From the NCBI RefSeq assembly GCF_025506355.1, contig NZ_JANZYP010000084.1, positions 1-35,852 on the forward strand: a DNA stretch of 35,852 nt, given 5' to 3'. Numbering within the stretch: the first letter of the stretch is position 1; each line of letters begins with the position of its first letter. A model generated the notes under the pieces. The model was not told where the DNA came from. It saw only the letters and a program-made list of their open reading frames with translations, and searched no databases. This stretch comes from Sphaerisporangium corydalis. Lineage in GTDB: Bacteria > Actinomycetota > Actinomycetes > Streptosporangiales > Streptosporangiaceae. The translations under genes were made by a program, and so were the position numbers. Positions 7,861-34,016 of this stretch are shown piece by piece.

Positions 7861-10073
7861 GCCGGGGCGGGGATGCGGCCGTCGATCGGCGTGTCGCCCA
7901 GGATGTCGATGGGGCTGACCGTGACCGGTACGCCGTTGAAGACGGCGTTGCCGGACGGGACGTCGATCACCGACTCGTCGGTCAGCGCGTTCGCGTTGAC
8001 GCCCGCCTCCACCGACGCGAGCCGCTGCGGGGTGCCCGCGTGCCCCCACCCGTGGGGCAGGCTCACGACCCCCGGCATGATCATGTCGGTGGGTTCGACC
8101 GGCACGACCAGCTCGCCGTTGGCCGAGCGGACGACCACCTCGTCGCCGAGCCCGAGCCGGGTCACGTCGTCCGGGTGGATGTGCAGGGTGCACTGGTTGG
8201 ACCCGCCGCGCAGGGTGGGCACGTTGTGCAGCCAGCTGTTCAGGGAGCGAAGCTGGCGGCGCCCGATCAGCACCATCTCCGGCGCCGGCGTGGCCAGCCG
8301 TTCGAGCATCCGGCCGGTCTCCTCGGCCATCCCCGGCGGGGCCAGCTCCACCTTGCCCGAGGCCGTGGACAGCAGCTCGGCCAGCCTGGGCCCGAGCGGG
8401 CCGAGGTCGATGCCGTGCGGGTTCTCCCGCAGCTTGGCCAGCGACAGGCCGTACGGGCCCATCCTGAGCATGGCGTCCAGCATGAGTTCGGGTCCGCTGT
8501 CGCCCTCGAGTGAGGCCCGCAGCTCGGCCACGTCCATGCCCTCGACCGGCGAGCCCGGCATGCTGGTGCCCCCGGCGAGCATGCCGCCGAGCATCATCTC
8601 GTCGACCGCGGAGGGGTCGGCGTCCGGCCCCTGCCCCTGGGCGATCAGCATGAGCCTGCCCATGATCGCGGCCTCGGACGGCTGCCCCGGCTCCAGCTCC
8701 CGGATGGCCGGGGAGTACCGGGTGTAGTTCCGCACCGTGACGGTCAGCAGCAGGAAGTCGTAGTGCGGCATCTGCAGGATCCGCGGCGGCGGCAGGATGA
8801 CGTGGGCGTACTGCGTGGTCTCGTTGAGGTAGGGGTCGACGCAGACCATGAACTCCAGGTCGGCGAGGGCCCGCGCCAGCCGGGGCCCGCCCGGCGCCGA
8901 CAGCACCGGGTTGCCCGCCACCGACACCAGCGCCCTGACCTGGCCCTCTCCGGGGGTCTCGATCTCGTCGGCGAGCGTGGCCACCGGGAACTCCCCGAGC
9001 GACTCCGGCAGCCCTCGTACGCGGCTGTGCCAGTGCCCGGTGGCGTACGGCTCGTGCCAGGGGCCGATCCCGCCCGCGGCGATCCGGGTGAACATGACCC
9101 CGCCGGGCCGGTCGAGGTTCCCGGTCAGGGTGTTGATCACGTCGACCAGCCACTGCGCGGCCGTACCGAACTCGACGGTGCAGGCGCCGATGCGGGAGTA
9201 GACGGCGGCGGTGGGGGCCGCGGCCAGCTCACGCGCCAGCCGGACGATCTTCTCGGCGGGCACCCCGCAGATCGGGGACACGGCTTCGGGGGCGAAGTCC
9301 TCGGCCAGCCGCCGCAGGTCCTCGACGCCCTCCACGTCGACGCCGATCGCGGTGAGGTTCTCCGCCAGCAGGGTGTGCACGATGCCGTACAGCAGGAAGG
9401 CGTCGGTGCCCGGCCTGATGAACAGGTGCTCGTCGGCGAGGTCGGCGGTGCGTGTGCGGCGCGGGTCGACGACCACGAGTCTGCCGCCGCGCTTGCGCAG
9501 GTCCTTGAGGCGGGCCGGGAAGTTCGGGGCGGCGCACAGCGAGCCGTTGGACTCCACGGGGTTGGCGCCGAGCACAAGCAGGTAGTCGGTGCGGTCCAGG
9601 TCGGGCACCGGGATGGCCATCGGGTTGCCGAACATCAGGCCGCAGGACACGTGCTTCGGCATCTGGTCGATGGTGCTGGCGGAGTAGATGTTGCGGGTGC
9701 CGAGCGCCTGGCCCAGCGGCCCCCGGTACAGGGGTCCGGCCATGGTGTGGAAGGTGGGGTTGCCGAAGTAGGCGGCGAGGCTCTCGCGCCCGTGGGTGTC
9801 GATGACCTTGTTCAGGCCCTCGTCGACGACCCGGAACGCCTCGTCCCAGGAGACCTCGTGCCACTCGCCGTCCCTGCGGACCATGGGGACGCGCAGCCGG
9901 TCAGGGTCGGCGTCGAGGTGGCCGAGGCTGGCGCCCTTGGGGCAGATGTACCCCTTGGAGAACGGGTCCTCCGGGTCGCCCTTGACCGACGTGACCTGCC
10001 CGGCGTCGTCGAGGGTGAGCCGCAGGCCGCAGACGGCGTCACAAAGGGGGCAGGTCCGGTGCACGGTTCTCAT
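7851..10073 (-). CDS. Molybdopterin-dependent oxidoreductase (formate-dehydrogenase/nitrate-reductase superfamily)
   Basis: About 740 aa. Near the N-terminus a C-x2-C-x3-C ... C set (CPLCDAVC, then CPKG about 29 residues on) binds a 4Fe-4S cluster, as in bis-MGD enzymes. Further motifs: YRGPLGQALGTRNIYSAS, DQMPKHVSCGLMFG (the Cys may ligate Mo), DYLLVLGANPVESN, VVVDPRRTRTADLADEHLFIRPGTDAFLLYGI, and the C-terminal molybdopterin-dinucleotide domain (STASGKVELAPP ... SWLHNVPTLRGG, LPHGWGH). Overall it resembles the stand-alone mycobacterial Rv0197-type oxidoreductases. No Tat signal is visible, so it is probably cytoplasmic. AGGAG lies five bases before ATG 10073, favouring this over the GTG two codons earlier. 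The substrate is unknown and no electron-transfer subunit is adjacent. Confidence 0.88.
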   Translation of the reverse strand: MRTVHRTCPLCDAVCGLRLTLDDAGQVTSVKGDPEDPFSKGYICPKGASLGHLDADPDRLRVPMVRRDGEWHEVSWDEAFRVVDEGLNKVIDTHGRESLAAYFGNPTFHTMAGPLYRGPLGQALGTRNIYSASTIDQMPKHVSCGLMFGNPMAIPVPDLDRTDYLLVLGANPVESNGSLCAAPNFPARLKDLRKRGGRLVVVDPRRTRTADLADEHLFIRPGTDAFLLYGIVHTLLAENLTAIGVDVEGVEDLRRLAEDFAPEAVSPICGVPAEKIVRLARELAAAPTAAVYSRIGACTVEFGTAAQWLVDVINTLTGNLDRPGGVMFTRIAAGGIGPWHEPYATGHWHSRVRGLPESLGEFPVATLADEIETPGEGQVRALVSVAGNPVLSAPGGPRLARALADLEFMVCVDPYLNETTQYAHVILPPPRILQMPHYDFLLLTVTVRNYTRYSPAIRELEPGQPSEAAIMGRLMLIAQGQGPDADPSAVDEMMLGGMLAGGTSMPGSPVEGMDVAELRASLEGDSGPELMLDAMLRMGPYGLSLAKLRENPHGIDLGPLGPRLAELLSTASGKVELAPPGMAEETGRMLERLATPAPEMVLIGRRQLRSLNSWLHNVPTLRGGSNQCTLHIHPDDVTRLGLGDEVVVRSANGELVVPVEPTDMIMPGVVSLPHGWGHAGTPQRLASVEAGVNANALTDESVIDVPSGNAVFNGVPVTVSPIDILGDTPIDGRIPAPASA

Positions 10074-15282: not shown

Positions 15283-16071
15283 TCACGGCAGCCAGGCGAC
15301 GTGGCCGCGCAGCAGCCCGTAGCCCACGAAGGCGACGGCGTCGATCAGCGTGTGCGCGACGATCAGCGGCATCGCCCGCCCCCACCGCTGGTACAGGCGC
15401 CCGAACAGCACGCCCATCGCCAGGTTGCCGACGAAGCCGCCGAAGCCCTGGTACAGGTGGTAGGACCCGCGCAGCAGCGCCGACACCGCGACGGCCGTCC
15501 ACGGTCTCCAGCCCAGCCGGGCCAGGCGGTGCAGCAGGTAACCGCTGACGATCACCTCTTCGAGCACGGCGTTCTCCAGCGCGGCCAGCAGCAGGACGGG
15601 CACGCGCCACCACACGTCGGGAAGCTGGTCAGGGACGACGTTGAGGTTGACCCCGGCGCCGAACGCGAGCAGGTAGAAGGCCAGCCCGGTGCCCCCCACG
15701 ACGGCCGCGAGGACCGCGCCCCGCAACGCGTCCCGCCCAGGCTCGCGCAGGTCGGCGCCGATCGTGCGCAGCGACTCGCCGGACCGGGCCAGCAGGTAGG
15801 CGACCAGCGCCACGGGCGCCACCGTCACCGCGATGCCGACGAGCTGGTAGGTGAGATCCAGCCAGGGGCGTCCTGGCGCCATCGTGCCGACGAGGACGGC
15901 GTGCTGGCCCTTCAGCGCCTGCGGCGCGGTCAGCGAGCCGACCAGCGACACCAGGGATCGCAGGGCGCTGGCGCCGAGCGACACCGCGAACACCACGATG
16001 ATCTCGCTGCCGATGAGCCGCGGGGTGAACGGCCGCGTTTCGACGGATTCCTCCGGCCGGGAGTCACGCAT
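15283..16071 (-). CDS. CPBP family intramembrane metalloprotease homologue
   Basis: About 262 aa with roughly eight hydrophobic segments. The abortive-infection/CPBP signature is recognisable: LENAVLEEVIVSGYLLHRLARLGWRPW (the EE pair), SYHLYQGFGGFVGNLAMGVLFG (His of motif 2), and PLIVAHTLIDA (His/Asp of motif 3). In the usual EExxxR motif the Arg position is Ser here, so activity may differ. Family members process prenylated proteins or membrane peptides, and some are tied to bacteriocin immunity. ATG 16071 is chosen by similarity; an in-frame ATG at 16110 would add 13 residues. Neither has a clear ribosome binding site. It is divergent from the kinase operon. Confidence 0.8.
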   Translation of the reverse strand: MRDSRPEESVETRPFTPRLIGSEIIVVFAVSLGASALRSLVSLVGSLTAPQALKGQHAVLVGTMAPGRPWLDLTYQLVGIAVTVAPVALVAYLLARSGESLRTIGADLREPGRDALRGAVLAAVVGGTGLAFYLLAFGAGVNLNVVPDQLPDVWWRVPVLLLAALENAVLEEVIVSGYLLHRLARLGWRPWTAVAVSALLRGSYHLYQGFGGFVGNLAMGVLFGRLYQRWGRAMPLIVAHTLIDAVAFVGYGLLRGHVAWLP

Positions 16072-16127
16072 GTGTCGCAGCGTAGACGCGTCCGGGGAAC
16101 AGGGTGTCATGGAGGTTCGGCACGTCC

Positions 16128-16133
16128 TATGAT
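16128..16133 (+). promoter_or_regulatory. -10 element of the kinase operon, leaderless geometry
   Basis: TATGAT (5 of 6 to TATAAT) is followed by CAAAA and then ATG 16139. Transcription would start at or next to that ATG, giving a leaderless 14-codon ORF. No good -35 is seen at 16-19 nt. This placement also argues against using ATG 16129 as the kinase start, since that codon lies within the -10. Confidence 0.5.
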
Positions 16134-16138
16134 CAAAA

Positions 16139-16183
16139 ATGACATCGCAAGCGGGCGAACTCCACATGGAGCGCGGCGAATGA
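16139..16183 (+). CDS. Leader ORF (14 codons) coupled to the first pseudokinase gene
   Basis: ATG 16139 opens a 14-codon frame encoding MTSQAGELHMERGE, with its TGA stop at 16181-16183. The stop overlaps the pseudokinase ATG at 16180 in an ATGA junction. It lies five bases after a good -10, so it would be the first ORF on the transcript. The GGAG inside it (16168-16171), eight bases before ATG 16180, can serve the kinase. A translated leader with termination-reinitiation would set the amount of the downstream proteins. Nothing in the peptide suggests amino-acid attenuation. That it is translated is inference. Confidence 0.35.
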   Translation: MTSQAGELHMERGE

Positions 16184-18084
16184 CCGAGACAGTTTCCCTC
16201 GGCCGATCCGACCCAAGGGAAATCGGAGAGTACACACTTGTAGCGCGCCTCCACGAGGACGACCAGGTCTGCGTGTACCTCGCGGACGACCGGTCGGGCG
16301 AGCGGGTCGAGGTCGTGTGGCTGCGCGAGGGCGTCGGCGGCGACGAGGACTCCACCAGGATCACCGAGGCGACCACCAAACTGGCCTCGGTGTCGGTGTC
16401 CTCCATCGCGCAGACCATCGCCTCCGGCGTGCAGGACGGCCGGCCGTACGTCGTCGTCGAGCACGTCGAGGGCGTCAGCCTGCGCGCGGCCGTCGAGCGG
16501 AGCGGGCCGCAGTCCGGGGCGGCGCTGCACCGGCTGGCCATCTCGACGATGACCGCGCTAGTCGCCCTCCACCAGGCCGGGGTCGCGCACGGCGACCTGC
16601 ACCCGGGGAACGTGCTGCTCGGACCCGACGGCGTGCGCGTCGCGGGGGCCGCGATGGCGCGGGTGGTGCCGTCAGGCGGCGACATGGCGACCCGCGCGCT
16701 GACCTCGCTCGCCTACCTTTCGCCCGAACGGCTCGGCGGGACCGGCGCGGAACCGCCGGGCGACATGTTCGCCTGGGCCGCCACGCTGGTCTTCGCGGCG
16801 ACCGGGCACGACCCCTTCGAGGGCGGCTCGACGTCGGCCACGATCAACCGCGTGCTCCGGGACCAGCCCGACCTGACGGCGCTGGACGAGCATCTGCGCA
16901 TGGTGGCGGCCGCCTGCCTGTCCAAGGATCCGGCCGACCGGCCCGAGGCGGCCGACGCCCTGCTCGGGCTGGTCGGGCACACCCTGCTGCCCGTCGGCGT
17001 GGACCTGCCCGTCTACACCGAGCCCTCGGCCGCGAACCCCGGGGTGTGGCGCAGGAGGCTGCTGACCGGGGCCGGCGCGGTGCTCATCGCCGTGGCTGGC
17101 ACGCTCGGCGGCCATTTCGCCGCCGCCCGCTCGGGACAGGCCGCCGCGCCCCCCGCCCCCCGCGTGAGCCCCACCCCCTCGCTCAACCTGACCGCGACCG
17201 TGCCCCGGCCCGCCGCTCCCCCGCCGGCCACCACCAAGGTGGCCGCGCCCGGCCTGGACATGACGCTGCACGAGAACCCCGCCGACCCGTGGCGGTTCGC
17301 CGCCTACCGCACGTCCAAAGTGAGCTACATGCGGACCCCCGGGACCGCCGAGTTCACCTCCGCGGGGATGGTCTCGGACGACGTGGCGGCCTCGCCCGAC
17401 GGAATGTGGGTGGCGCTCCTGACCACGACCAAGAAGACCGGCACGGTCACGTTCGTCCCCCGCACCGGAGGCGAGCGGTTCACCGTCGCCGTGCCGCCGT
17501 CCGCGTACCGCCCCACCTGGGACCCCCGCGGTACGCGCCTCATGTTCACCCTGCACAGCGGCGAGAAGAAGGTGCCCACGGGCTTCGTGCTCGTCGACGT
17601 GGCCGGCCGCTCGGCCGCCGAGGTCGACACCGACGACGAGAAGCGGCGCGGCGAGGGCTACTACGTGTGGCTGCCCGACGGCGCCCACGTCGCCGTGTCC
17701 TACCAGACCGAGGACGACGACTACGGCATGCGGTTCCGCGACCTGACCGGGAAGGAGATACGGACCATGGACTGGGTCGGGTACATCGCGGGCCGCCGGT
17801 CGTTCTCCCCGTCCGGCAAGCAGTTCACCACCCTGTGCCCGAGCGGTGGCACCCTGTGCGTCTGGGAGGCCGACACCGGCGTCCGCCGCGCCTCGATCGC
17901 GATCACCTACGTGGGCTCCGAGTTCTGGGGGTGGTACGACGAGAACCACGTCGTGGTGCTCGACCCCCGCAAGGACCCGTACAAGCTCGTCGTCGTGGAC
18001 ATGCTCGGGCGGCCTGGACGGGTGCTGGCGACGGTGGCCAAGAAGGACTACTCCGACCTGTACATGTCCGTGGCGAAGAGGTGA
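16180..18084 (+). CDS. Receptor-like pseudokinase 1 with beta-propeller-like ectodomain
   Basis: A 634-aa protein. Residues about 17-265 have the Hanks kinase fold, close to its neighbours, but key residues are gone. The Gly loop is LHEDDQVCV. The beta-3 Lys position is Val46 (VEVVWL). The catalytic loop is HGDLHPGN (Asp139 and Asn144 kept, Lys replaced by His141). DFG is replaced by GAA (156-158). The SPE of the activation segment and a GDMFAWAATLVFAATG helix remain. One membrane helix (about 284-304) and a Pro/Ala linker lead to an outer domain of about 290 residues with the motif HENPADPWRF, repeated SPxG/W-D-G strands and a C-x6-C pair. It is predicted to be unable to transfer phosphate. 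ATG 16180 has GGAG eight bases upstream. It overlaps the next gene by GTGA. Confidence 0.85.
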   Translation: MTETVSLGRSDPREIGEYTLVARLHEDDQVCVYLADDRSGERVEVVWLREGVGGDEDSTRITEATTKLASVSVSSIAQTIASGVQDGRPYVVVEHVEGVSLRAAVERSGPQSGAALHRLAISTMTALVALHQAGVAHGDLHPGNVLLGPDGVRVAGAAMARVVPSGGDMATRALTSLAYLSPERLGGTGAEPPGDMFAWAATLVFAATGHDPFEGGSTSATINRVLRDQPDLTALDEHLRMVAAACLSKDPADRPEAADALLGLVGHTLLPVGVDLPVYTEPSAANPGVWRRRLLTGAGAVLIAVAGTLGGHFAAARSGQAAAPPAPRVSPTPSLNLTATVPRPAAPPPATTKVAAPGLDMTLHENPADPWRFAAYRTSKVSYMRTPGTAEFTSAGMVSDDVAASPDGMWVALLTTTKKTGTVTFVPRTGGERFTVAVPPSAYRPTWDPRGTRLMFTLHSGEKKVPTGFVLVDVAGRSAAEVDTDDEKRRGEGYYVWLPDGAHVAVSYQTEDDDYGMRFRDLTGKEIRTMDWVGYIAGRRSFSPSGKQFTTLCPSGGTLCVWEADTGVRRASIAITYVGSEFWGWYDENHVVVLDPRKDPYKLVVVDMLGRPGRVLATVAKKDYSDLYMSVAKR

Positions 18085-20105
18085 GCACGTTGCGTCCCGC
18101 GGATTCGCCCCCCGCCGACGGCCCCGCCGAGATCGGCCCCTACCGCGTCGTCCGCGTCCTGTCGTCGAGCTGCTGCTCGGTCACGACCTACCTCGCCGAG
18201 ACCGCGTCCGGCGAACGGGTCGCGTTGCGCCACTACGCCGATCCTTCGCTGCGCCGACCGTCCGGCCTGTCCGAACTTGAACGGTTACGCGACGCCCCCG
18301 CCGCCGGCACGGTGCACGTGCTCGACGTCCAGGCCGGGTACATCGTCAGCGAGTACGTCGACGGGCCCGACCTGGCCGGGGAGATCGAGCGCCAGGGGCC
18401 GCTGGCGGGGGCGGCGCTGCAACGCCTGGCGATCAGCACCGTCACCGCGCTGGCCGCCCTGCACCGGTCCGGGGCCGCCCACGTCGGGATCCGTCCCGAC
18501 CGCGTCCTGCTCGGCCCCGACGGCCCCCGGCTGATCTACCGGGGCCCGGAGCGGCACGACATGCTCGGGCCCGCCCACGAGACCAACCGCGTGGACGCCA
18601 CCGTCCTCGCGTGGCACACGCCCGAGGAGCTGGCGGGCGACCGGCCAGGCCAGGCCGCCGACCTGTTCACCTGGGCGTCGGTGATCGCCTACGCGGCGAC
18701 CGGCCGCGACCCCTTCGACGGCGAGTCGATCACCGAGTCGACGCGGCGGCTGTCGACCGCGGCGGCCAGCCTCGGCCGGCTGGAGGAGGGCCCGCTGCGC
18801 GACGCGCTGGCCGACTGCCTGGCCAGGGAGCCGGACGACCGGCCGACCGCCGAGGACACCCTGCTCAGGCTGCTCGGGCACTCCCAGGTCCTCGACACCG
18901 CCCTGCCCGACGCCCTCCCTCCCGGGACCGCGCCCCGGCGGCGATCCGCGCCGCGCCGTGTCCTGGTACTGGTCGCCGCGGGCGTCGCCATCGCGCTGGT
19001 CAGCAGCGGGATCTCCGCCGCCGTCACCCTCCGGGCCGCCGAGCGGCCCGCCGCCCCCGCTCCCGCGACCTCGGCTCCGGCCGTCGCGGGCTCCTGGACG
19101 CCGCGAGCGGTGCCGTCCGCCACCACCACGGCGCTCCCCCCAAAGGTGGACAAGGGCGTGGCCCTCCCCGGGAACCTGGGCACGCTGTACGAGCACCCGG
19201 CCGACCCGGTCCGCCTCAGCGCCATCCGGGTCAGCAAGACCCACGACAACGGCCGCACCGACATCTACGCCCGCGATCCGAGGAGCGGCACGTTCGAGCG
19301 GGCCGGCTCGACCAACACCGTGGCGGAGCTCTCCCCCGACGGCCGCTACCTGGCCACCATGGACACGCTCTACCTGGCCACCTCGCAGCAGTTGTCCGTG
19401 CAGTTCACCGACCACCTCACCGGCGCCAAGTTCGGCATCCCGACGCTGCGCAGCCCGTACGTGTCGTTCGGCATGGCCTGGTCGCGGCAGAGCGACAGCA
19501 TCGTGGTCAGCGCGCTCCGCAGGGAGAAGGTCGGCAAGGACACCCACGTCTACACCGCGGGATTCGTGATCGTCGACGTGGCCGCGCGCAGCTCGGTGTT
19601 CGTGCCCACCACCGACGCCGAGGACGTCAAGGTCGCCGGCACGGCCGTCCAGCCGGAGAGCTTCATCTCCTTCTACCGCTGGGCGCCGGACGGCCGCTCG
19701 GTCGCCGCGCGCTACCTCACCGCCGAGTGGGGCAACGGCCTGCGCTTCCGCGACCTGGCGGGGCAGCCGCTGCGGCTGATGCACTGGGTGGGCTCCCCCA
19801 CCGGCAACGGCGACTGGTTCTCCCCCTCCGGCGACACCTTCGTCACCAGCGGCTGCGAGAAGGTCATCTCGCTCTGCGTGTGGCGGACCACCACCGGGGA
19901 GCGGGTCGCCACCATCCCGGTGTCCCCGCAGGGGGGAGCGCTCATCGGCTGGTACGACGACCGGCACATCATCGAGGTCCATTCCGTGACGAAGGACCTG
20001 CAGCGGGTGGTGTTGCGCGACTTCGCCGGCCAGGAGGTCCGGGTGCTCGCGGACCTCAACGCCCCCGTAGGCGGACTGGTCGACATCCGCTACACGCGAG
20101 GCTGA
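18081..20105 (+). CDS. Receptor-like pseudokinase 2 with beta-propeller-like ectodomain
   Basis: A 674-aa protein starting at GTG 18081, inside the GTGA overlap with pseudokinase 1. The kinase fold is recognisable from IGPYRVVRVL, YIVSEYVDGPDL, ALQRLAISTVTALAALHRSG and WHTPEELAGDRPGQAADLFTWASVIAYAATG. It is the most degenerate of the three: Gly loop LSSSCCSV, beta-3 Lys to Arg50, catalytic loop HVGIRPDR (Asp to Gly136, Lys to Arg138, Asn to Arg141), DFG to YRG (153-155). A membrane helix (VLVLVAAGVAIALVSSGI) leads to an outer domain with YEHPADPVRL, W-x-PDGR strands, LRFRDLAGQPLRLMHWVG and a C-x6-C pair (CEKVISLC). It is probably a purely structural or allosteric partner of its neighbours. 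Confidence 0.85.
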   Translation: MSTLRPADSPPADGPAEIGPYRVVRVLSSSCCSVTTYLAETASGERVALRHYADPSLRRPSGLSELERLRDAPAAGTVHVLDVQAGYIVSEYVDGPDLAGEIERQGPLAGAALQRLAISTVTALAALHRSGAAHVGIRPDRVLLGPDGPRLIYRGPERHDMLGPAHETNRVDATVLAWHTPEELAGDRPGQAADLFTWASVIAYAATGRDPFDGESITESTRRLSTAAASLGRLEEGPLRDALADCLAREPDDRPTAEDTLLRLLGHSQVLDTALPDALPPGTAPRRRSAPRRVLVLVAAGVAIALVSSGISAAVTLRAAERPAAPAPATSAPAVAGSWTPRAVPSATTTALPPKVDKGVALPGNLGTLYEHPADPVRLSAIRVSKTHDNGRTDIYARDPRSGTFERAGSTNTVAELSPDGRYLATMDTLYLATSQQLSVQFTDHLTGAKFGIPTLRSPYVSFGMAWSRQSDSIVVSALRREKVGKDTHVYTAGFVIVDVAARSSVFVPTTDAEDVKVAGTAVQPESFISFYRWAPDGRSVAARYLTAEWGNGLRFRDLAGQPLRLMHWVGSPTGNGDWFSPSGDTFVTSGCEKVISLCVWRTTTGERVATIPVSPQGGALIGWYDDRHIIEVHSVTKDLQRVVLRDFAGQEVRVLADLNAPVGGLVDIRYTRG

Positions 20106-20111
20106 CCGGAC

Positions 20112-22028
20112 ATGCCAGGCACCACCCCGCTGCGTCCCAGCGACCCGGCCACCGTCGGCGACTACCGGATCGTCGGCCGACTCGGGTCGGGCGGCCAGGG
20201 CGTCGTCTACCTGGCCGAGCCGCCGGAGGGCGAACCCGTCGCGATCAAGATGCTGCACGCCTCGCCGGACACCCTGTCGGCGATGCGGTTCCGCCGCGAG
20301 TCCGAGGTGCTGCCCAAGGTCGCGTCGTTCTGCACCGCGCAGGTGCTGGAGACCGGCTTCGCCGGGACCGTGCCGTACATCGTCAGCGAGTACATCGACG
20401 GGCCGACCCTCCAGGAGGCGGTGGCCCAGCGCGGCCCGCTGCACGGCCGCGAGCTGCACCGGCTCGCGGTGGGCACGATCACCGCCCTGGCCGCGATCCA
20501 CCGCGCCGGGGTGGTGCACCGCGACTTCAAGCCGGCCAACGTCCTGCTGAGCCGTGACGGACCCCGGGTCATCGACTTCGGCATCGCCCGCCAGGCCGGC
20601 GGGGACGTCACCGAGGGCGGCCCGATCGGCACCCCGTCGTACATGGCCCCCGAGCAGCTCGGGGACACCCCGGCGGGTCCCCCCGCCGACATGTTCGCCT
20701 GGGCCTGCACCATGGTCTTCGCCGCCACCGGGCGCCCGCCGTTCGGCGCCGACTCGCTGCCGGCGATCCTGAACAGGGTCCTGCACTCCGACCCCGACCT
20801 CGGCGGGCTCGAAGGCGAGCTGGGCGACCTGGCCACCGCCTGCCTGGCGAAGGATCCGAGGGCCCGGCCGATGAGCAGGCAGGTGCTGCTCCAGCTCCTC
20901 GGGCGGCCCGCGGCCGCGCCGACCGGGGCGGCGGGCCAGGAGGAGCTCGCTGCGGGCAGCTCGTACGCCGACCGGCCCACCGCGACCCGGCGGCCGCGCC
21001 GGCTCGCCGTCGTGCTGGTCGCCGCCTGCCTGCTGGTGGGCGCGGGGCTGGTGTACCGGGTCCTGCCCAAGGGCTCCACCACGGCCACGCCCAGGCCCAC
21101 GCCCTCGGTCGCCGTCTCGACCGCCACCGCGGGGCCGCTTCCGACGACCGCACGCGAGGTCGCGATCCCCGACCTCGGGGCGAAGGTGTACGAGAACCCC
21201 GCCGACCCGCTGCGGCTCACCGCGTTCATCCACACCGACTCCAACCTGATCTTCACGGCCGCGTGGCGCTCGCCGGACGGCGCCTTCCACGACGTCGAGG
21301 AACGGATGATGTTCCAGGTCTCCCCCGACAGGACGGGCATGGCGGGCGTCCAGGAGTTCCCGCAGTACGCCCAGGGGGACGGCAACGAGGTGCACTTCGC
21401 CGGCCGCCTCCACGAAGACGAGTTCCGGGTCCCCACCGTCGCGCGCCCGCTCGCCGTGCGCGGCATGATCTGGTCGGAGGACAGCCGCCGGGTACTGCTG
21501 ACCACGTACGACGCGACCGCCAGCACCGGCGACAGCGTGGGGTTCGCCATCGTGGACCGCGAGACCCGGAAGACCACCGTCGTCAAGGTCGACGGCGCGG
21601 GCACCGGGCGGTCGAACTTCGTGTGGGCGCCCGGCGACGCGGGAGTCGTGAGGGCGGTGGGCAAGAACGCCGAAGGCGTCCGGTTCTACGGTCTGGACGG
21701 CAGGCTCCAGCGCACGCTCAAGGGGCTCCGCGTCCCGGAGGACAGCGTTCCCGTGGTGTCCTCCAAGGGCCGGATGGCCGCGCTGTGCCCGGGGAAGCGG
21801 CACGCCGCCTGCGTCGTGGACCCGGCCACCGGCGCCCGTCAGGCGACGGTCCCGCTGCCCAAGGACTCCCTGCTCTGGTTCTGGTTCGGCCAGGACCATC
21901 TAGGCATCTACGACAAGTCAGCCAAACGCCCGCAGCTCCGGGCCCTGGACCTGACCGGGCGGACGGTCCGTGTGCTCGCCGACTTCACCCCGGGCACCAC
22001 GTGGCTGGTCCACTGGAGCAGCGGCTGA
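20112..22028 (+). CDS. Serine/threonine protein kinase with beta-propeller-like ectodomain, intact active site
   Basis: A 638-aa protein. The kinase domain (about 18-265) has every catalytic element: GSGGQG loop (25-30), VAIK with Lys46, HRDFKPAN with Asp138, Lys140 and Asn143, DFG (155-157), GTPSYMAPE (172-181). One helix spans about 298-316. The outer half begins YENPADPLRL, the same entry motif as pseudokinases 1 and 2, and ends with WFWFGQDHLGIYDKSA. A C-x7-C pair (CPGKRHAAC) matches theirs. It follows pseudokinase 2 by six bases. Together the three genes look like one receptor complex in which this protein phosphorylates and the others sense or regulate. Substrates are unknown. The 69-nt gap before the glycosyltransferase holds a second promoter candidate. 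Confidence 0.92.
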   Translation: MPGTTPLRPSDPATVGDYRIVGRLGSGGQGVVYLAEPPEGEPVAIKMLHASPDTLSAMRFRRESEVLPKVASFCTAQVLETGFAGTVPYIVSEYIDGPTLQEAVAQRGPLHGRELHRLAVGTITALAAIHRAGVVHRDFKPANVLLSRDGPRVIDFGIARQAGGDVTEGGPIGTPSYMAPEQLGDTPAGPPADMFAWACTMVFAATGRPPFGADSLPAILNRVLHSDPDLGGLEGELGDLATACLAKDPRARPMSRQVLLQLLGRPAAAPTGAAGQEELAAGSSYADRPTATRRPRRLAVVLVAACLLVGAGLVYRVLPKGSTTATPRPTPSVAVSTATAGPLPTTAREVAIPDLGAKVYENPADPLRLTAFIHTDSNLIFTAAWRSPDGAFHDVEERMMFQVSPDRTGMAGVQEFPQYAQGDGNEVHFAGRLHEDEFRVPTVARPLAVRGMIWSEDSRRVLLTTYDATASTGDSVGFAIVDRETRKTTVVKVDGAGTGRSNFVWAPGDAGVVRAVGKNAEGVRFYGLDGRLQRTLKGLRVPEDSVPVVSSKGRMAALCPGKRHAACVVDPATGARQATVPLPKDSLLWFWFGQDHLGIYDKSAKRPQLRALDLTGRTVRVLADFTPGTTWLVHWSSG

Positions 22029-22085
22029 TCCCCGCCGGGCGCGGTCGTGCAAGGGTGCGTCAAGCCGCTTGCAGGTGGCATGCCC

Positions 22086-22091
22086 GATAAT
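22086..22091 (+). promoter_or_regulatory. Candidate leaderless -10 for the glycosyltransferase gene
   Basis: GATAAT is followed by six bases (GCGCGC) and ATG 22098, with no ribosome binding site between. This is the same layout as CATAAT before GTG 25222. No -35 is clear. Confidence 0.4.
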
Positions 22092-22097
22092 GCGCGC

Positions 22098-22889
22098 ATG
22101 ACGACGTACGGACTCGCCTCGACCCAGGGCAAGTACACCCGGGTCAGCGATGACCTGGCCATCGGGGCCACGGTCACCGTGGTGGTTCCCGCCATGAACG
22201 AGGCGGAGAACCTGCCGCATGTGTTCGCCACCCTGCCGCACTGGATCGACGAGGTCGTCCTGGTCGACGGCAACTCCACCGACGAGACCGTGGCCGTCGC
22301 GAAGGCCTTACGCCCTGGGCTGCGCGTCGTCACGCAGAGCGGCCGGGGCAAGGGGAACGCGCTCACCGAAGGCTTCGCCGCCGCGACCGGCGACATCATC
22401 GTCATGATCGACGCCGACGGCTCCACGGACGGCCGCGAGATCATCCGCTTCGTGTCCGCGCTGGTCGCCGGGGCCGACTTCGCCAAGGGCTCGCGCTACG
22501 CCTCCGGCGCGGGGTCGGACGACATCAGCTTCACCCGCTCGTTCGGCAACACGGTGCTGACCACGCTGACCAACATGCTGTACGGCACCCGCTACACCGA
22601 CCTCTGCTACGGGTACAACGCGTTCTGGGCGCGCCACCTCGACGTCCTGGCGCTCGACTGCGACGGCTTCGAGATCGAGACGCTGATGAACGTGCGGGCC
22701 GCCCAGGCGGGGCTCTCCGTGCACGAGGTGCCGAGCCACGAGCACTGCCGCATCCACGGCACGAGCAACCTGCACGCCGTGCGCGACGGCTGGCGCGTCC
22801 TGAAGACCATCGTCCGCGAGCGCGCCCGCCGCACCGTCCTCGAACCGATCCAGCAGGTCACCCCGCTGTCCGAGCACGTCGCCGCCTGA
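22098..22889 (+). CDS. Family 2 glycosyltransferase
   Basis: A 263-aa protein with the GT-A fold: VTVVVPAMNEAENLPHVFATLP (nucleotide-binding N-terminus), EVVLVDGNSTDETV, GKGNALTEGF, and the metal-binding DxD in VMIDADGSTDG. The later part contains GSRYASGAGSDDISFTRSFGN and DLCYGYNAFWARH, resembling polyprenyl-phosphate-glycosyltransferase-like GT2 proteins, but without C-terminal membrane helices. It probably transfers a sugar to a lipid carrier or surface polymer at the inner membrane face. It lies 69 nt after the kinase operon and could be cotranscribed with it or use its own leaderless promoter. ATG 22098 is chosen for that reason; ATG 22080 is in frame. Confidence 0.85.
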   Translation: MTTYGLASTQGKYTRVSDDLAIGATVTVVVPAMNEAENLPHVFATLPHWIDEVVLVDGNSTDETVAVAKALRPGLRVVTQSGRGKGNALTEGFAAATGDIIVMIDADGSTDGREIIRFVSALVAGADFAKGSRYASGAGSDDISFTRSFGNTVLTTLTNMLYGTRYTDLCYGYNAFWARHLDVLALDCDGFEIETLMNVRAAQAGLSVHEVPSHEHCRIHGTSNLHAVRDGWRVLKTIVRERARRTVLEPIQQVTPLSEHVAA

Positions 22890-25221: not shown

Positions 25222-26877
25222 GTGGCTGAGACGCGTCGGATCGGACCGTACACGCTCGTGCGCACGCTCGGCGAAGGCGGCATGGGCATCGTCCACCTCG
25301 CCCAGGCCCCGGACGGGAGCCTGGTCGCGCTCAAGGTGATGCGTCCCGAACTGGCCACCCGGGAGGACTTCCGGCGCAGGTTCCGCAAAGAAGCGCAGGC
25401 CGCGCAGCGGGTCGCCCGGTTCTGTACCGCTCCCGTGCTCGACGCCGACATGGACGGCGAGGTGGCCTACCTCGCCACCGAATTCGTCGACGGACCCGAC
25501 CTCGGCTCGGTGATCGCCGCCCAGGGGCCGATGGACGGCGCCGACCTGGAGGCCCTGGCCGTCGGGGTCGCCGCGGCGCTGACCGCGATCCACCGCGCGA
25601 ACGTGGTCCACCGCGACCTCAAGCCGTCCAACATCCTGCTCAGCCCGTTCGGCCCGCGAGTGATCGACTTCGGCATCGCCCAGCTCGCCGACACCCTCAC
25701 CGCGCAGACCGCCACCCTGATCGGCACACCCCAGTACATGGCGCCCGAGCACGCGAACGGCACGACCGTGGGGCAGGCGGCCGACGTGTTCGCCTGGGGC
25801 TCGGTGATCACCTACGCGGGCACCGGCAGCCCGCCGTTCGGCTCGGGGGCCGTGCCGGAGGTGCTCTACCGCGTGGCCCACCACGCGCCCAAGCTCGACG
25901 GCCTAGACGAGAGCCTGCGTCCCCTGGTGGAACGTGCCCTGGACAAGGACCCCACCCGCCGCCCCACGGCCCAGCGCCTCCTGGACCACCTCGTCGGCGG
26001 AGAACAGGTAGAAATCGCCGCCGCCACCCGAATAGTCAGCGAAATCTGGTCCACAACCACCCCCCACAACCCCCCACCGCCGTCCTCCCCACCCACCCCG
26101 CCAGAGGTCTCGCCTCCCACCCCACCGGCGACCACGCCGTCCGCCGCCAGGCGCCTGCGGACGCCCGCCATCATGGTGTCGGCCGCCCTGGCCGTGACCG
26201 CGGGACTCACGCTCGTCGTCTGGCATCCATGGTCCGGCGGGACCTCCACGTCACAGCCCGCCCAGCCGAAACAGGAAGCCGGATGGCGACTCGTGAAGGC
26301 GAACGAGAGGATCGTCATCCGTCCCCCGGCCACCGAAGGCGACGCCACCGCCGACTGCGCGCTGGCCCGGTCGACCTTCCTCAACGCGGACGGCCTGACG
26401 ATCACCTCCGAGGCCCTCCATGGCGGCTACATCGGCCCCGACGAGACCTTCGAGTACATGAACTGCGGCCAGGGCGGCACCGCGCTCGGCAGCGGCCTCA
26501 GACTTCTCGACAACAGGGGCCTCATGGGCTCGGTCGACCACCAGGACGTCACCCCCACGGAATGCCGCGACGCCGCACGCGAGTCCAACCTGCCCAACCC
26601 GATCACGATCCCGCAGATCCAGCACGACACGATCCTCAAACCCGGCACCGGCATCTGCATCGAAACCAGCAAAAAGAACGTAGACCTCCTCTGGATCCTC
26701 CGCGCCGACAAACACCCCGAAAACCACAACCTCCGCACTTACCTAATCTCCGCCACCCAGTGGATCCCGACGAGCACGGCCGGCAGTGCTCCTGGCCCGG
26801 CGGCGATCATGGTTCGAGAGGTCGTCGGCCGGTTCCTTGGGGGTGGGATCGGCCGACGGCGCTCAGGTTGGGATTAG
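25222..26877 (+). CDS. Serine/threonine protein kinase with a Cys-containing ectodomain
   Basis: A 551-aa protein from GTG 25222. Active-site elements are complete: GEGGMG (17-22), VALK with Lys38, HRDLKPSN with Asp132, Lys134 and Asn137, DFG (149-151), GTPQYMAPEH. A Pro/Thr/Ser linker after about residue 275 precedes one helix (IMVSAALAVTAGLTLVVW). The outer region, about 215 residues, shows no similarity I can see to the propeller-like exteriors at 16180-22028. It has four Cys (ATADCALARS, YMNCGQGG, TPTECRDAA, GICIETS), probably two disulfides, and a WIL/TYLISATQW end. Its ligand is unknown. It ends only 20 nt from the convergent propeller protein gene. Confidence 0.9.
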   Translation: MAETRRIGPYTLVRTLGEGGMGIVHLAQAPDGSLVALKVMRPELATREDFRRRFRKEAQAAQRVARFCTAPVLDADMDGEVAYLATEFVDGPDLGSVIAAQGPMDGADLEALAVGVAAALTAIHRANVVHRDLKPSNILLSPFGPRVIDFGIAQLADTLTAQTATLIGTPQYMAPEHANGTTVGQAADVFAWGSVITYAGTGSPPFGSGAVPEVLYRVAHHAPKLDGLDESLRPLVERALDKDPTRRPTAQRLLDHLVGGEQVEIAAATRIVSEIWSTTTPHNPPPPSSPPTPPEVSPPTPPATTPSAARRLRTPAIMVSAALAVTAGLTLVVWHPWSGGTSTSQPAQPKQEAGWRLVKANERIVIRPPATEGDATADCALARSTFLNADGLTITSEALHGGYIGPDETFEYMNCGQGGTALGSGLRLLDNRGLMGSVDHQDVTPTECRDAARESNLPNPITIPQIQHDTILKPGTGICIETSKKNVDLLWILRADKHPENHNLRTYLISATQWIPTSTAGSAPGPAAIMVREVVGRFLGGGIGRRRSGWD

Positions 26878-31379: not shown

Positions 31380-34016
31380 GTGCCGGGAAGCCGTCCGTTA
31401 CGGCCGGGTGAGATCGAGTCGATCGGCGCGTACCACCTGGTCGGCCTGCTCGGGGAGGGCGGCCAGGGAACGGTCTACCTGGCGGAGTCCACGGACGGGA
31501 CGCCCGTGGCGATCAAGGTGCTGCACGCCCGGCTGGTCGACGACGCGGACGCGCGGATGCGGTTCCTGCGCGAGATCGACCTGGCCAGGAGGGTCGCCGA
31601 GTTCTGCACGGCGCGGGTGCTGGACGCCGACGTGACCCATGACCGGCCGTACATCGTCAGCGAGTACGTCGAAGGCGAGTCGCTCGACCAGCTCGTGCGC
31701 CGGGAGGGTCCCCGCGACGGCGGGCCGCTCGACCGGCTGGCGGTGAGCACGGTGACCGCGCTGGCGGCGATCCACCGGGCGGGCATCGTGCACCGCGACT
31801 TCAAGCCGAGCAACGTGCTGCTGGGCACGGACGGCCCGCGCGTGATCGACTTCGGGATCGCTCGGATGATGGACGTCGCGGCGACCATGGCGAGCAAGGT
31901 CCAGGGCACGCCGTCGTACATGTCGCCCGAGCAGCTCCAGGGCTGGCAGCCGGGACCGGCGTCGGACGTCTTCAGCTGGGCGGTGCTGATGACGTTCGCC
32001 GCGACCGGCCACCCGGCGTTCGGCAGCGACAGCATCCCCGCGGTGATGAACCGCATCATGACCCGCGAACCCGACCTTACGGGCGTGCCGGAACGGCTGC
32101 GCGACCTGCTCGCGGCCTGCCTGACCAAGGACGCGCGTCGGCGGCCCAGCGCCGGGCAGGCGCTGTTCGCGCTCGTGGAGAGGGACGGGGAGGCGACCCA
32201 GCCGAGCGAGATCCCGGCCGCGGGGCGCGGGGGTGGTAAGCCGGATGGGACGTCCGCGTACGTACCGGAGCGGGAGGGGATGTCCGCTCATGTACCTCTC
32301 GCGTCTTCTCAGGGTGCCGAGCCGGGTGCTCGGCTTGTCGGGCCGGATGCACGGCTTGTCGGGCCGGGTGAACGGTCTGCCGATGCCGGGGTGGGCGGAC
32401 GGCCCGTCGATGCTGAGCGGGGTGGAGGGCCTGGTGTTGCCGGAGCGGGCGGACGGCCTGACGGTGGCGGCGGGGCGGGCGGACGGCCGGGCGAACGGCC
32501 TGGCGGCGGTGAGGCGGGTGGGGGTTCGTCGGGTAGGACGGGGGTGAGCGGGAGGGGGTCACGTCAGGACCGGCGCGACGGGGCCGGATCCAGCGGGATC
32601 GAGGTCGTGCCGGACGGCGGGTCGCCGGGCTCACCGGTCGACGGCGGGGCGCCGGGCGCGACGGGTTCGGGTGAGACTGCGGCGGGTTCGGGTGAGACCG
32701 CGGCGAGTGCGGGCGAGGCCGCGCAGGGGTTGGGTGGGACCGGGCCGGGTTCAGGCGGGACCGGGCCAGGTTCAGGTGGGATCGCGTCAGAGTCGGGTGG
32801 GATCGGGCCGGGGTCGGGTGGGACCGCGTCCGGGTCGGGTGGGACCGCGCCGTCGGAGAGTGGGTCCGGCGGTGCTGGAGGGGTGACCCGGCCGACGCGC
32901 TCGAGACCGCCTCGCGGGGTGCTCGCCGTCGTGTCCTTCGGCGTGGCGGTGGCCGTGGCCGGGGGGTCGTTCGCGGTGTTCAGCAGGGAGCGGCAGCCGT
33001 CCGTGCCCCGGCCGGGGGCGTCGGGGACGACGGCGGCGGTGGTGGTGGTTCCTTCGGTCGGCCCTGGATTCGGCGCTCCGCTCGGCGGGCCGTTCACCGG
33101 GCGGACCACGGACGTGCTCGCGGTCGCGGCGGCCGAGGTGGACGGGCGGCCGGTGACGCTCTCCGCCGGTCGCGACAGTGTGATCCGGATGTCGGAGGCC
33201 GGCACCCGCGAGGCGTCCCGGCGGTCGTTCAAGGTGGGCACGCCGTACGTGTCGTCGCTCGCGGTAGGGCAGGTGAAGGGGCGGCCCGTGGTCGTCTGCG
33301 GCGGGTTCGGCGGCGGGGTGTGGGTGTGGGACCTCACGACGGGCGCCATGCTGGGCCGCCCGTTCCGCGGACATCGCGGGGACGTGCTGGCGGTCGCGCC
33401 GTTCGAGCTGGATGGGCGTGGTGTCGTGGTGTCGGGCGGGCATGACGGGCTGCGGGTCTCCGACGCGGCCACCGGACGTGAGGTCGCCTCGCCGCTGCGT
33501 GGCAAGGGCGGCGAGATCACGTCGGTGACCGTCGCCGCGCTGGACGGGCGGCCGGTCGTGGTCTCCGGCGGCGTGGACGGCACCGTCCGGGTGTGGGACC
33601 CGGCCGGCGGGCGGCTGCTCGCCGGGCCGTACCGCGACGGCGGCACGGCGGTCGCCACGCTGGCCGTGGGCGAGTCGGCCGGGCGTCCGGTGATCGTCTC
33701 CGGCGGGGACAGGACGGTGCGGGTGCGCGACCTGCGCACCGGCCGGGCGGTCGGGCAACCGTGGAAGGGGCACACCGACCGCGTGGTGACGCTGGCGGTC
33801 ACGAAGGTCGACGGCCGTCCGGTGGTCGTCTCGGGGAGCTGGGACCGGACCGTCCGGGTATGGGACCTTGCCACGGGCACGCCACTCGGCCATCCGCTCA
33901 CGGGACCTGCGGGCTGGATCAGCTCGGTGGCGGTGACCAGGGTGAACGACACCCCTGCGGTGGTCGCGGGCACCAACGACGGCGAGATCTGGACCTGGAG
34001 CCTGGACCCCCGCTGA
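31380..34016 (+). CDS. Serine/threonine protein kinase with seven-repeat WD40 ectodomain
   Basis: An 878-aa protein from GTG 31380, preceded by GGGAGG; frames open further upstream give no kinase-like sequence. Active-site elements are complete: GEGGQG, VAIK with Lys46, HRDFKPSN with Asp140, Lys142 and Asn145, DFG (157-159), GTPSYMSPEQ. A very long Gly/Ser/Pro linker (about residues 280-505) contains nine heptapeptide repeats. One helix (GVLAVVSFGVAVAVAGGSFAVF) precedes seven WD40-like units, each about 40-47 residues with GRPVVVSGG-x-DGTVRVWDL-type cores, enough for one closed propeller. The propeller is on the outer side if the helix is a single span. The kinase domain is closest in look to the active kinase at 20112. 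Confidence 0.92.
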   Translation: MPGSRPLRPGEIESIGAYHLVGLLGEGGQGTVYLAESTDGTPVAIKVLHARLVDDADARMRFLREIDLARRVAEFCTARVLDADVTHDRPYIVSEYVEGESLDQLVRREGPRDGGPLDRLAVSTVTALAAIHRAGIVHRDFKPSNVLLGTDGPRVIDFGIARMMDVAATMASKVQGTPSYMSPEQLQGWQPGPASDVFSWAVLMTFAATGHPAFGSDSIPAVMNRIMTREPDLTGVPERLRDLLAACLTKDARRRPSAGQALFALVERDGEATQPSEIPAAGRGGGKPDGTSAYVPEREGMSAHVPLASSQGAEPGARLVGPDARLVGPGERSADAGVGGRPVDAERGGGPGVAGAGGRPDGGGGAGGRPGERPGGGEAGGGSSGRTGVSGRGSRQDRRDGAGSSGIEVVPDGGSPGSPVDGGAPGATGSGETAAGSGETAASAGEAAQGLGGTGPGSGGTGPGSGGIASESGGIGPGSGGTASGSGGTAPSESGSGGAGGVTRPTRSRPPRGVLAVVSFGVAVAVAGGSFAVFSRERQPSVPRPGASGTTAAVVVVPSVGPGFGAPLGGPFTGRTTDVLAVAAAEVDGRPVTLSAGRDSVIRMSEAGTREASRRSFKVGTPYVSSLAVGQVKGRPVVVCGGFGGGVWVWDLTTGAMLGRPFRGHRGDVLAVAPFELDGRGVVVSGGHDGLRVSDAATGREVASPLRGKGGEITSVTVAALDGRPVVVSGGVDGTVRVWDPAGGRLLAGPYRDGGTAVATLAVGESAGRPVIVSGGDRTVRVRDLRTGRAVGQPWKGHTDRVVTLAVTKVDGRPVVVSGSWDRTVRVWDLATGTPLGHPLTGPAGWISSVAVTRVNDTPAVVAGTNDGEIWTWSLDPR
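32664..32852 (+). repeat. Nine 21-bp repeats coding for a heptapeptide linker
   Basis: Nine in-frame 21-bp units encode GSGETAA (twice), SAGEAAQ, GLGGTGP, GSGGTGP, GSGGIAS, ESGGIGP, GSGGTAS and GSGGTAP. The period keeps the reading frame, so copy number can change without disrupting the protein. The units lie in the cytosolic linker just before the membrane helix. Confidence 0.9.

Follow-up and report, generated by a model that had tools for sequence, protein, structure and literature searches.

Why would a bacterium encode two apparently dead receptor kinases immediately upstream of a live one? The question is raised by a 35,852-nucleotide stretch of Sphaerisporangium corydalis DNA (assembly GCF_025506355.1, contig NZ_JANZYP010000084.1, positions 1 to 35,852; the whole stretch is referred to as the window), in which three paralogous genes, K1, K2, and K3, are arranged head to tail on the forward strand. 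K1 (16180..18084; ATG start) is an open reading frame of 634 amino acids, K2 (18081..20105; GTG start) one of 674, and K3 (20112..22028; ATG start) one of 638. The reading that we favor, with a probability of roughly 0.6, is that the three chains are co-expressed as a heteromeric membrane sensor, in which the two dead chains would sense, scaffold, or switch K3, the sole catalyst.

All three chains matched the Pfam family Pkinase above its cut-off, K1 with 73, K2 with 40, and K3 with 136 bits; the kinase folds lie at about 16222-16977, 18120-18890, and 20160-20894, respectively. In the order Gly loop, beta-3 strand, catalytic loop, and DFG, the motifs of K3 are GSGGQG, VAIK, HRDFKPAN, and DFG. 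With its beta-3 Lys, alphaC Glu, HRD Asp, Asn, DFG Asp, and APE Glu in place, K3 is a complete PknB-type Ser/Thr kinase. The motifs of K1 are HEDDQV, VEVV, HGDLHPGN, and GAA; the Gly loop, beta-3 Lys, and DFG are gone, and the catalytic Asp and Asn are kept. In K2, where the motifs are SSSCCS (SSSCSV in the other alignment), VALR, HVGIRPDR, and YRG, the catalytic (HRD) Asp and Asn are gone as well. The initial annotation had described three adjacent paralogues of common architecture, with precisely these losses in the first two and every catalytic residue in the third, and the motifs, the Pfam matches, the single candidate helix in each chain, and the ectodomain profile all agree with it. Judged by these residues, K1 and K2, which combine a kinase fold with missing catalytic residues and fall outside the active Hanks-type set, would be pseudokinases, and K3 the only catalyst of the cassette. 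The fold itself is predicted to be retained in the pseudokinases, for K2 on the basis of its structural model. The mean predicted local distance difference test score (pLDDT) is 80.9 for K2 and 81.4 for K1, the predicted template modeling score is 0.53, and the linker is disordered in both. The activation loops of K1 and K2 are short, K2 residues 162-172 have a pLDDT below 50, and a helix at residues 217-225 of the K2 model occupies, by eye, the place of alphaG.

Each chain continues from the kinase domain through an Arg-rich stretch, one candidate membrane helix, and a Pro/Ala/Thr-rich linker into a C-terminal propeller part. The hydrophobic helices are at about 17071-17127 in K1 (residues 298-316; weak, 1.60), 18960-19016 in K2 (residues 294-312; 2.39), and 21009-21065 in K3 (residues 300-318; 2.39). 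Two more windows barely exceed 1.5, at residue 260 of K1 and residue 490 of K2, and these fall within the predicted kinase and propeller domains, respectively. The position of the Arg-rich stretch before the helix suggests that the C-terminal part is external. It spans about 17170-18048 in K1, 19095-20060 in K2, and 21081-21989 in K3 and, in the structural models of K1 and K2, is all-beta save for a few short helices. A profile built from 61 ectodomains matched WD40 and TolB structures, the best match at 3.7e-33. Among the same 61 ectodomains, 11 Pfam families were found at an E-value of 0.01, with PD40 in 22 and the THOC3 propeller in 15. The Pfam scan gave no propeller family for K1, K2, or K3 themselves, nor did a separate ectodomain scan for that of K2, and the Foldseek and VIA rows listed for K2 are all kinase chains. 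The ectodomains of K1 and K3 are 37% and 27% identical to that of K2. The chains thus have the layout of WD40/TolB-like propeller receptor kinases, with a propeller after one membrane helix, the helix of K1 being weakly hydrophobic.

To find related loci, the K2 protein was searched in 149 relatives, with about the best eight candidates per genome scored and the regions surrounding selected hits retrieved; in addition, genomes were scanned with a set of six K2 orthologues, which contributed 80 of 87 loci. Seven of the 112 loci examined (the window, L061-L091, and L101-L180) were repeats and 29 had no such ectodomain, which left 76. With P for pseudokinase and A for active kinase, these comprise 15 P-P-A, 17 P-A, 30 A, 1 A-A, 2 P-P, 4 P, 1 ?-P-A, 1 ?-A, 1 ?-fragment, and 4 unreadable loci. 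Loci were collected by likeness to K2, and the numbers of lone kinases are not a fair census. Absence of the triad from related genomes had been named in advance as grounds for abandoning the idea, and the triad is present: there are 15 complete pseudokinase-pseudokinase-kinase cassettes (the window and 14 others), and two more are cut by contig ends. The complete triads are distributed over Herbidospora, Acrocarpospora, Nonomuraea, Thermocatellispora, one unclassified member of the Streptosporangiaceae, and, in the window, Sphaerisporangium. The open frames are long in every complete cassette, and the live kinase is last in all 33 mixed cassettes. Among further relatives, S. flaviroseum has a protein 64% identical to K2. 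The proteins P0006 (72% identical to K2) and P0019 (K1-like, with the lesions of K1, 70% identical to K1) are each listed with a contig of 10,511 bases and so probably adjoin. The S. corydalis genome itself carries a second cassette of the family on another contig, a pseudokinase-kinase pair (L061).

The spacing of the genes is conserved along with their order. In the window, the K2 start and the K1 stop overlap in the sequence GTGA (18081..18084), through which translation of K2 may be coupled to that of K1, and six nucleotides (20106..20111) separate the K2 stop from the K3 start. We refer to genes at the three triad positions as T1, T2, and T3 (K1, K2, and K3 in the window) and to the dyad pseudokinase as D1. 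A candidate start was present -4 to +7 nucleotides from the upstream stop in 16 of 18 T1-T2, 14 of 16 T2-T3, and 15 of 17 dyad junctions; no start was placed at the remaining ones. The matched expression that the initial annotation read from the overlap and gap is supported by this spacing. Shared non-kinase flanking genes were sought among 12 triad loci and were clear across genera only for NEAU-GS5 and Herbidospora; the other cross-genus flank matches were kinase frames, plus weaker ones between frames of L101 and the window. As the non-kinase flanks are mostly unshared, the conserved unit is the cassette itself.

Each of the catalytic columns listed for K3, the Gly loop included, is kept in 16 of 16 T3 sequences. 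Kinases were called active on four residues (Lys, Asp, Asn, and DFG Asp), whose invariance in live kinases is by construction; the alphaC Glu and the catalytic-loop Lys, which are outside this definition, are kept in 47 of 47. None of the 18 T2 sequences retains the HRD Asp (replaced by Ala, Gly, or Arg), the Asn, or the DFG Asp, and the beta-3 Lys is lost in all 15 that align there (a gap was scored as a loss in the other three). The DFG Asp is lost in all 17 readable T1 sequences. Across T1, T2, and D1 the catalytic columns are scrambled; the fold columns are nearly all kept in every group. Lesions in D1 are milder, often one or two residues, and some of the dyad "pseudokinases" may keep activity.

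Phylogenies were calculated for the ectodomains (105 rows) and the kinase domains (104 rows) as quick trees with Shimodaira-Hasegawa-like approximate likelihood ratio support only; they include 14 of the 30 lone kinases and exclude L115, L129, L155, and four loci marked with a question mark. In the ectodomain tree, T1 (18 sequences), T2 (18), and T3 (16) each form one clade, with support of 99, 99, and 100, respectively. The dyads fall into two main classes plus the long-branched L085, and the pseudokinase ectodomains group together with support of only 85. In the kinase tree, T1, T2, and T3 again form one clade each (support of 74, 85, and 98), and 50 active-side rows are set apart at 99. The distances within T1, T2, and T3 agree with one another (Mantel r 0.76-0.94; none of 5000 permutations as high). 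The simplest history is a single origin of a pseudokinase in a pair, followed by a second pseudokinase and inheritance as a unit. The ratio of nonsynonymous to synonymous change (omega), from Nei-Gojobori counts that are rough in these high-GC genes, indicates purifying selection on the triad pseudokinase domains, with medians of 0.17-0.39. The median kinase-domain values for T1, T2, and T3 are 0.23, 0.18, and 0.15 in Herbidospora and 0.17, 0.39, and 0.24 in Acrocarpospora; ectodomain medians are 0.23-0.60 in triads and 0.62-0.66 in dyads.

A heteromeric receptor is the best explanation for the coupled synthesis of matched chains, two dead and one live, that selection maintains. The cassette would be a self-contained three-gene signaling unit, inherited together, in which one coupled message, presumably a single transcript, yields three paralogous receptor chains, two of them specialized as non-catalytic subunits. 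The chains would assemble at the membrane, and their propellers might read an external signal, such as the cell wall or a small molecule. The pseudokinase domains would hold or allosterically set K3, act as phosphorylated docking platforms, or both; K3 would phosphorylate itself and its partners and provide the output. In animal receptors of the HER3 type, a chain with a dead kinase is paired with a live paralogue. The comparison is plausible and concerns the logic alone, a dead receptor chain with a live paralogue; here two pseudokinases are encoded with one kinase, the ectodomain is a propeller, and heteromer and allostery are putative. We put forward only tentatively, as somewhat less probable than its converse, the wider proposal that a HER3-type system evolved independently in bacteria, by duplication of an ancestral propeller-kinase through a pseudokinase-kinase pair to a fixed-order triad whose products form a stoichiometrically coupled hetero-oligomer with the dead chains as obligatory co-receptors and switches of the one live kinase.

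Several observations weigh against a heteromeric sensor built in this way. The residues of the PknB back-to-back dimer (R10, L33, and D76) are not evidently kept in K3 when an alignment is compared by eye. Within the genus the triad is patchy: the best match to K2 in 10 congeners, by E-value rank and among the matches listed, is 39% identical, and in the six congeners from which loci were fetched the genes are of the dyad class, with the kinase missing in one case (L089). Support for the T1 clade in the kinase tree is only 74. That tree was built with the catalytic columns included, and these may themselves contribute to the separation of dead and live domains; long pseudokinase branches could also attract each other. 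Because the pseudokinases group together, the live-last order may reflect few independent events. Selection on the kinase domains of class I dyads is weaker (omega of 0.52 for D1 and 0.40 for D2).

The pairing of dead with live chains has exceptions as well. We counted 55 pseudokinases, leaving out L129, in which the loss is apparently due to a frame break, as its kinase and ectodomain are in different frames. An intact kinase follows within the cassette in 48; the two of L101 precede a kinase frame truncated by the end of the contig, and L076 stops 67 bases short of a contig edge. The remaining four have no following kinase. Two belong to Herbidospora yilanensis (L113), which keeps T1 and T2 and lacks the third gene at its usual place, after position 9232; the best-scoring match in its genome to a Herbidospora T3 is only 45% identical. 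The third, L089, is a lone pseudokinase with no kinase after it, and the fourth, L083, also stands alone, has a beta-3 Lys to Arg change as its sole scored loss, and groups with the active kinases. Conversely, 30 active kinases with this ectodomain are alone (one of them, L084, lies at a contig edge), and at L079 two intact kinases are paired, which shows that members of the family can do without a pseudokinase partner. In Nonomuraea longispora (L155), a kinase of the ectodomain family, next to a second family member at the edge of a contig, has a kinase domain interrupted by a large gap; it is possibly a real case of decay.

Phosphorylated docking, which accommodates the same data, is a serious rival to the heteromeric switch, or a complement to it. 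K3 would phosphorylate juxtamembrane or activation-loop Thr residues of the pseudokinases, which would then recruit forkhead-associated (FHA) domain proteins and serve as substrates and platforms, not as allosteric switches. FHA domains favor pT-x-x-V. Motifs of this kind, acidic and resembling DPDATARV, are present in one to four copies in the activation-loop inserts of six of seven Herbidospora T1 genes (L068, L105, L106, L108, L111, and L113; none in L110). A second candidate site is the Thr/Ser of the T2 juxtamembrane motif GHSxxLDTALP, found in 16 of 18 T2 proteins; in K2 the putative phospho-acceptor is Thr273 (18897..18899, forward strand). There is a precedent in the mycobacterial pseudokinase MviN, which, according to a review, is phosphorylated by live PknB and recruits FhaA (PMC12599244). 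The T2 motif is missing, however, in two Nonomuraea (L101 and L102) and in the relatives P0012, P0014, and P0015, and the loop motifs were found in Herbidospora alone; K1 of the window and L117 have one looser match each, that of K1 outside the loop. As the whole explanation, docking seems to us unlikely, if well worth keeping in mind.

A second rival casts the pseudokinases as an upstream brake, comparable to an antitoxin: made first, they would restrain a costly or growth-arresting K3 and release it on a signal. The invariable final position of the live kinase and the tight start-stop spacing would suit such a brake. So would the loss of T3 alone in H. yilanensis, as expected if pseudokinases are harmless by themselves, and the finding that none of the 14 lone kinases in the trees (30 lone kinases in all) falls within the T3 clade. 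Those 30 related kinases, scored as active, nevertheless have no pseudokinase partner, and nothing indicates a toxin-like function for K3, whose matches in a defence library cover mainly the generic kinase domain. We regard a brake as improbable. The library matches, many of them to PD-T4-6 and related systems, also provide no evidence for a role in phage defence.

Still less probable is a set of independent receptors with nothing but a promoter in common. There is a propeller on every chain, and the K1 and K3 ectodomains differ substantially from that of K2; however, two of the three look incapable of signaling by phosphotransfer on their own, and several genera share the order and spacing even though the flanks mostly change. 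Random decay, in which K1 and K2 would be defunct duplicates of K3 awaiting loss, can draw on catalytic lesions that differ among lineages and on the patchy triad with its 39% best congener match among those listed, but we reject it as scarcely credible given omega well below 1 at both triad pseudokinase positions, long open frames in all complete cassettes, kept fold columns, and a single clade for each position across several genera.

The heteromeric sensor can be set beside several known systems. K3 differs from PknB and related Hanks-type kinases in having a WD40/TolB-like propeller outside instead of PASTA domains, and in being encoded with two pseudokinase paralogues. The ectodomain profile matches a structure (5yzv) of PkwA, a WD40 kinase of Thermomonospora curvata, at 2e-13, in the propeller only; the account of PkwA, in the sections available, mentions no pseudokinase partner (PMC6113231). 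Actinobacterial pseudokinases of the MviN/ActPs3 type are described as having degraded motifs and a deletion in the activation loop, frequently together with a membrane region (PMC12599244). The activation-loop segment of K2 is also short, a likeness by description only. MviN is a membrane protein of peptidoglycan synthesis, and its operon, as given in that part of the review, names no kinase gene (PMC12599244); K1 and K2, by contrast, are receptor paralogues of the adjacent kinase. The mainly actinobacterial ActPs1 proteins are reported there to have all three canonical residues substituted, many to have a C-terminal PQQ_2 domain, and about 60% to lack the G-helix (PMC12599244). In the tree of bacterial kinases, Act1 is the neighbor of ActPs1. 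Substitution of all three holds for K2; K1 keeps the HRD Asp. The PQQ_2 domain is propeller-like and is absent from the 11 Pfam families of the 61 ectodomains. ActPs2 is characterized by a beta-3 Lys to Arg change, and Arg is found in 14 of 18 T2 sequences, including K2 (Val in K1), whereas the HRD Asp to Asn change and the activation-loop insert of about 250 residues are found in neither K1 nor K2. Assignment of K1 and K2 to ActPs1, ActPs2, or ActPs3 was considered and not adopted; PQQ_2 and the Asp to Asn change with the loop insert are absent, and the other defining features do not place them firmly.

Co-encoded kinase activators are known from Bacillus subtilis, where the gene for the BY-kinase PtkA shares an operon with that for the transmembrane activator TkmA, and where a possible pseudokinase role, in recruiting substrates or activating PtkA, has been proposed for PtkB and MinD (PMC4205851). 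BY-kinases have a different fold (PMC12599244), and the co-encoded activator is not described, in the sections available, as a dead kinase paralogue. The review of bacterial pseudokinases nowhere uses the word tandem, and no kinase-pseudokinase operon is named in its passages on operons (PMC12599244). No bacterial kinase-pseudokinase receptor operon was found among the best-ranked results from the open-licence literature, which is weak evidence of absence, most subscription papers being outside that scope. Bacterial pseudokinases, propeller kinases, pseudokinase co-receptors, and co-encoded B. subtilis tyrosine-kinase activators are already known; what may be new is the fixed pseudokinase-pseudokinase-kinase receptor operon. 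The cassette offers a bacterial parallel to animal pseudokinase co-receptors. In named strains from several genera, and in versions with one and with two pseudokinases, each pseudokinase adjoins its probable live partner, which makes the role of a bacterial pseudokinase directly testable.

The surroundings of the cassette in the window include two further intact PknB-type kinases downstream (25240-25989 and 31422-32165), neither of which matched the ectodomain profile. A CAAX-protease-like (Rce1) gene (15283-16107, reverse strand) is divergent from K1, so that the transcript probably begins with K1. Directly upstream of K1, at 16104..16133 on the forward strand, is a sigma-70-like promoter match, by consensus only; it is the single such match in 15900-22200, compared with a mean of 0.2 in shuffled sequences. 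The K1 start is uncertain because a second in-frame ATG lies at 16129, 17 codons upstream. A family 2 glycosyltransferase gene (22047-22889) matched only itself in the compared triad flanks, some of which were short; it begins shortly downstream of K3 and may share its transcript.

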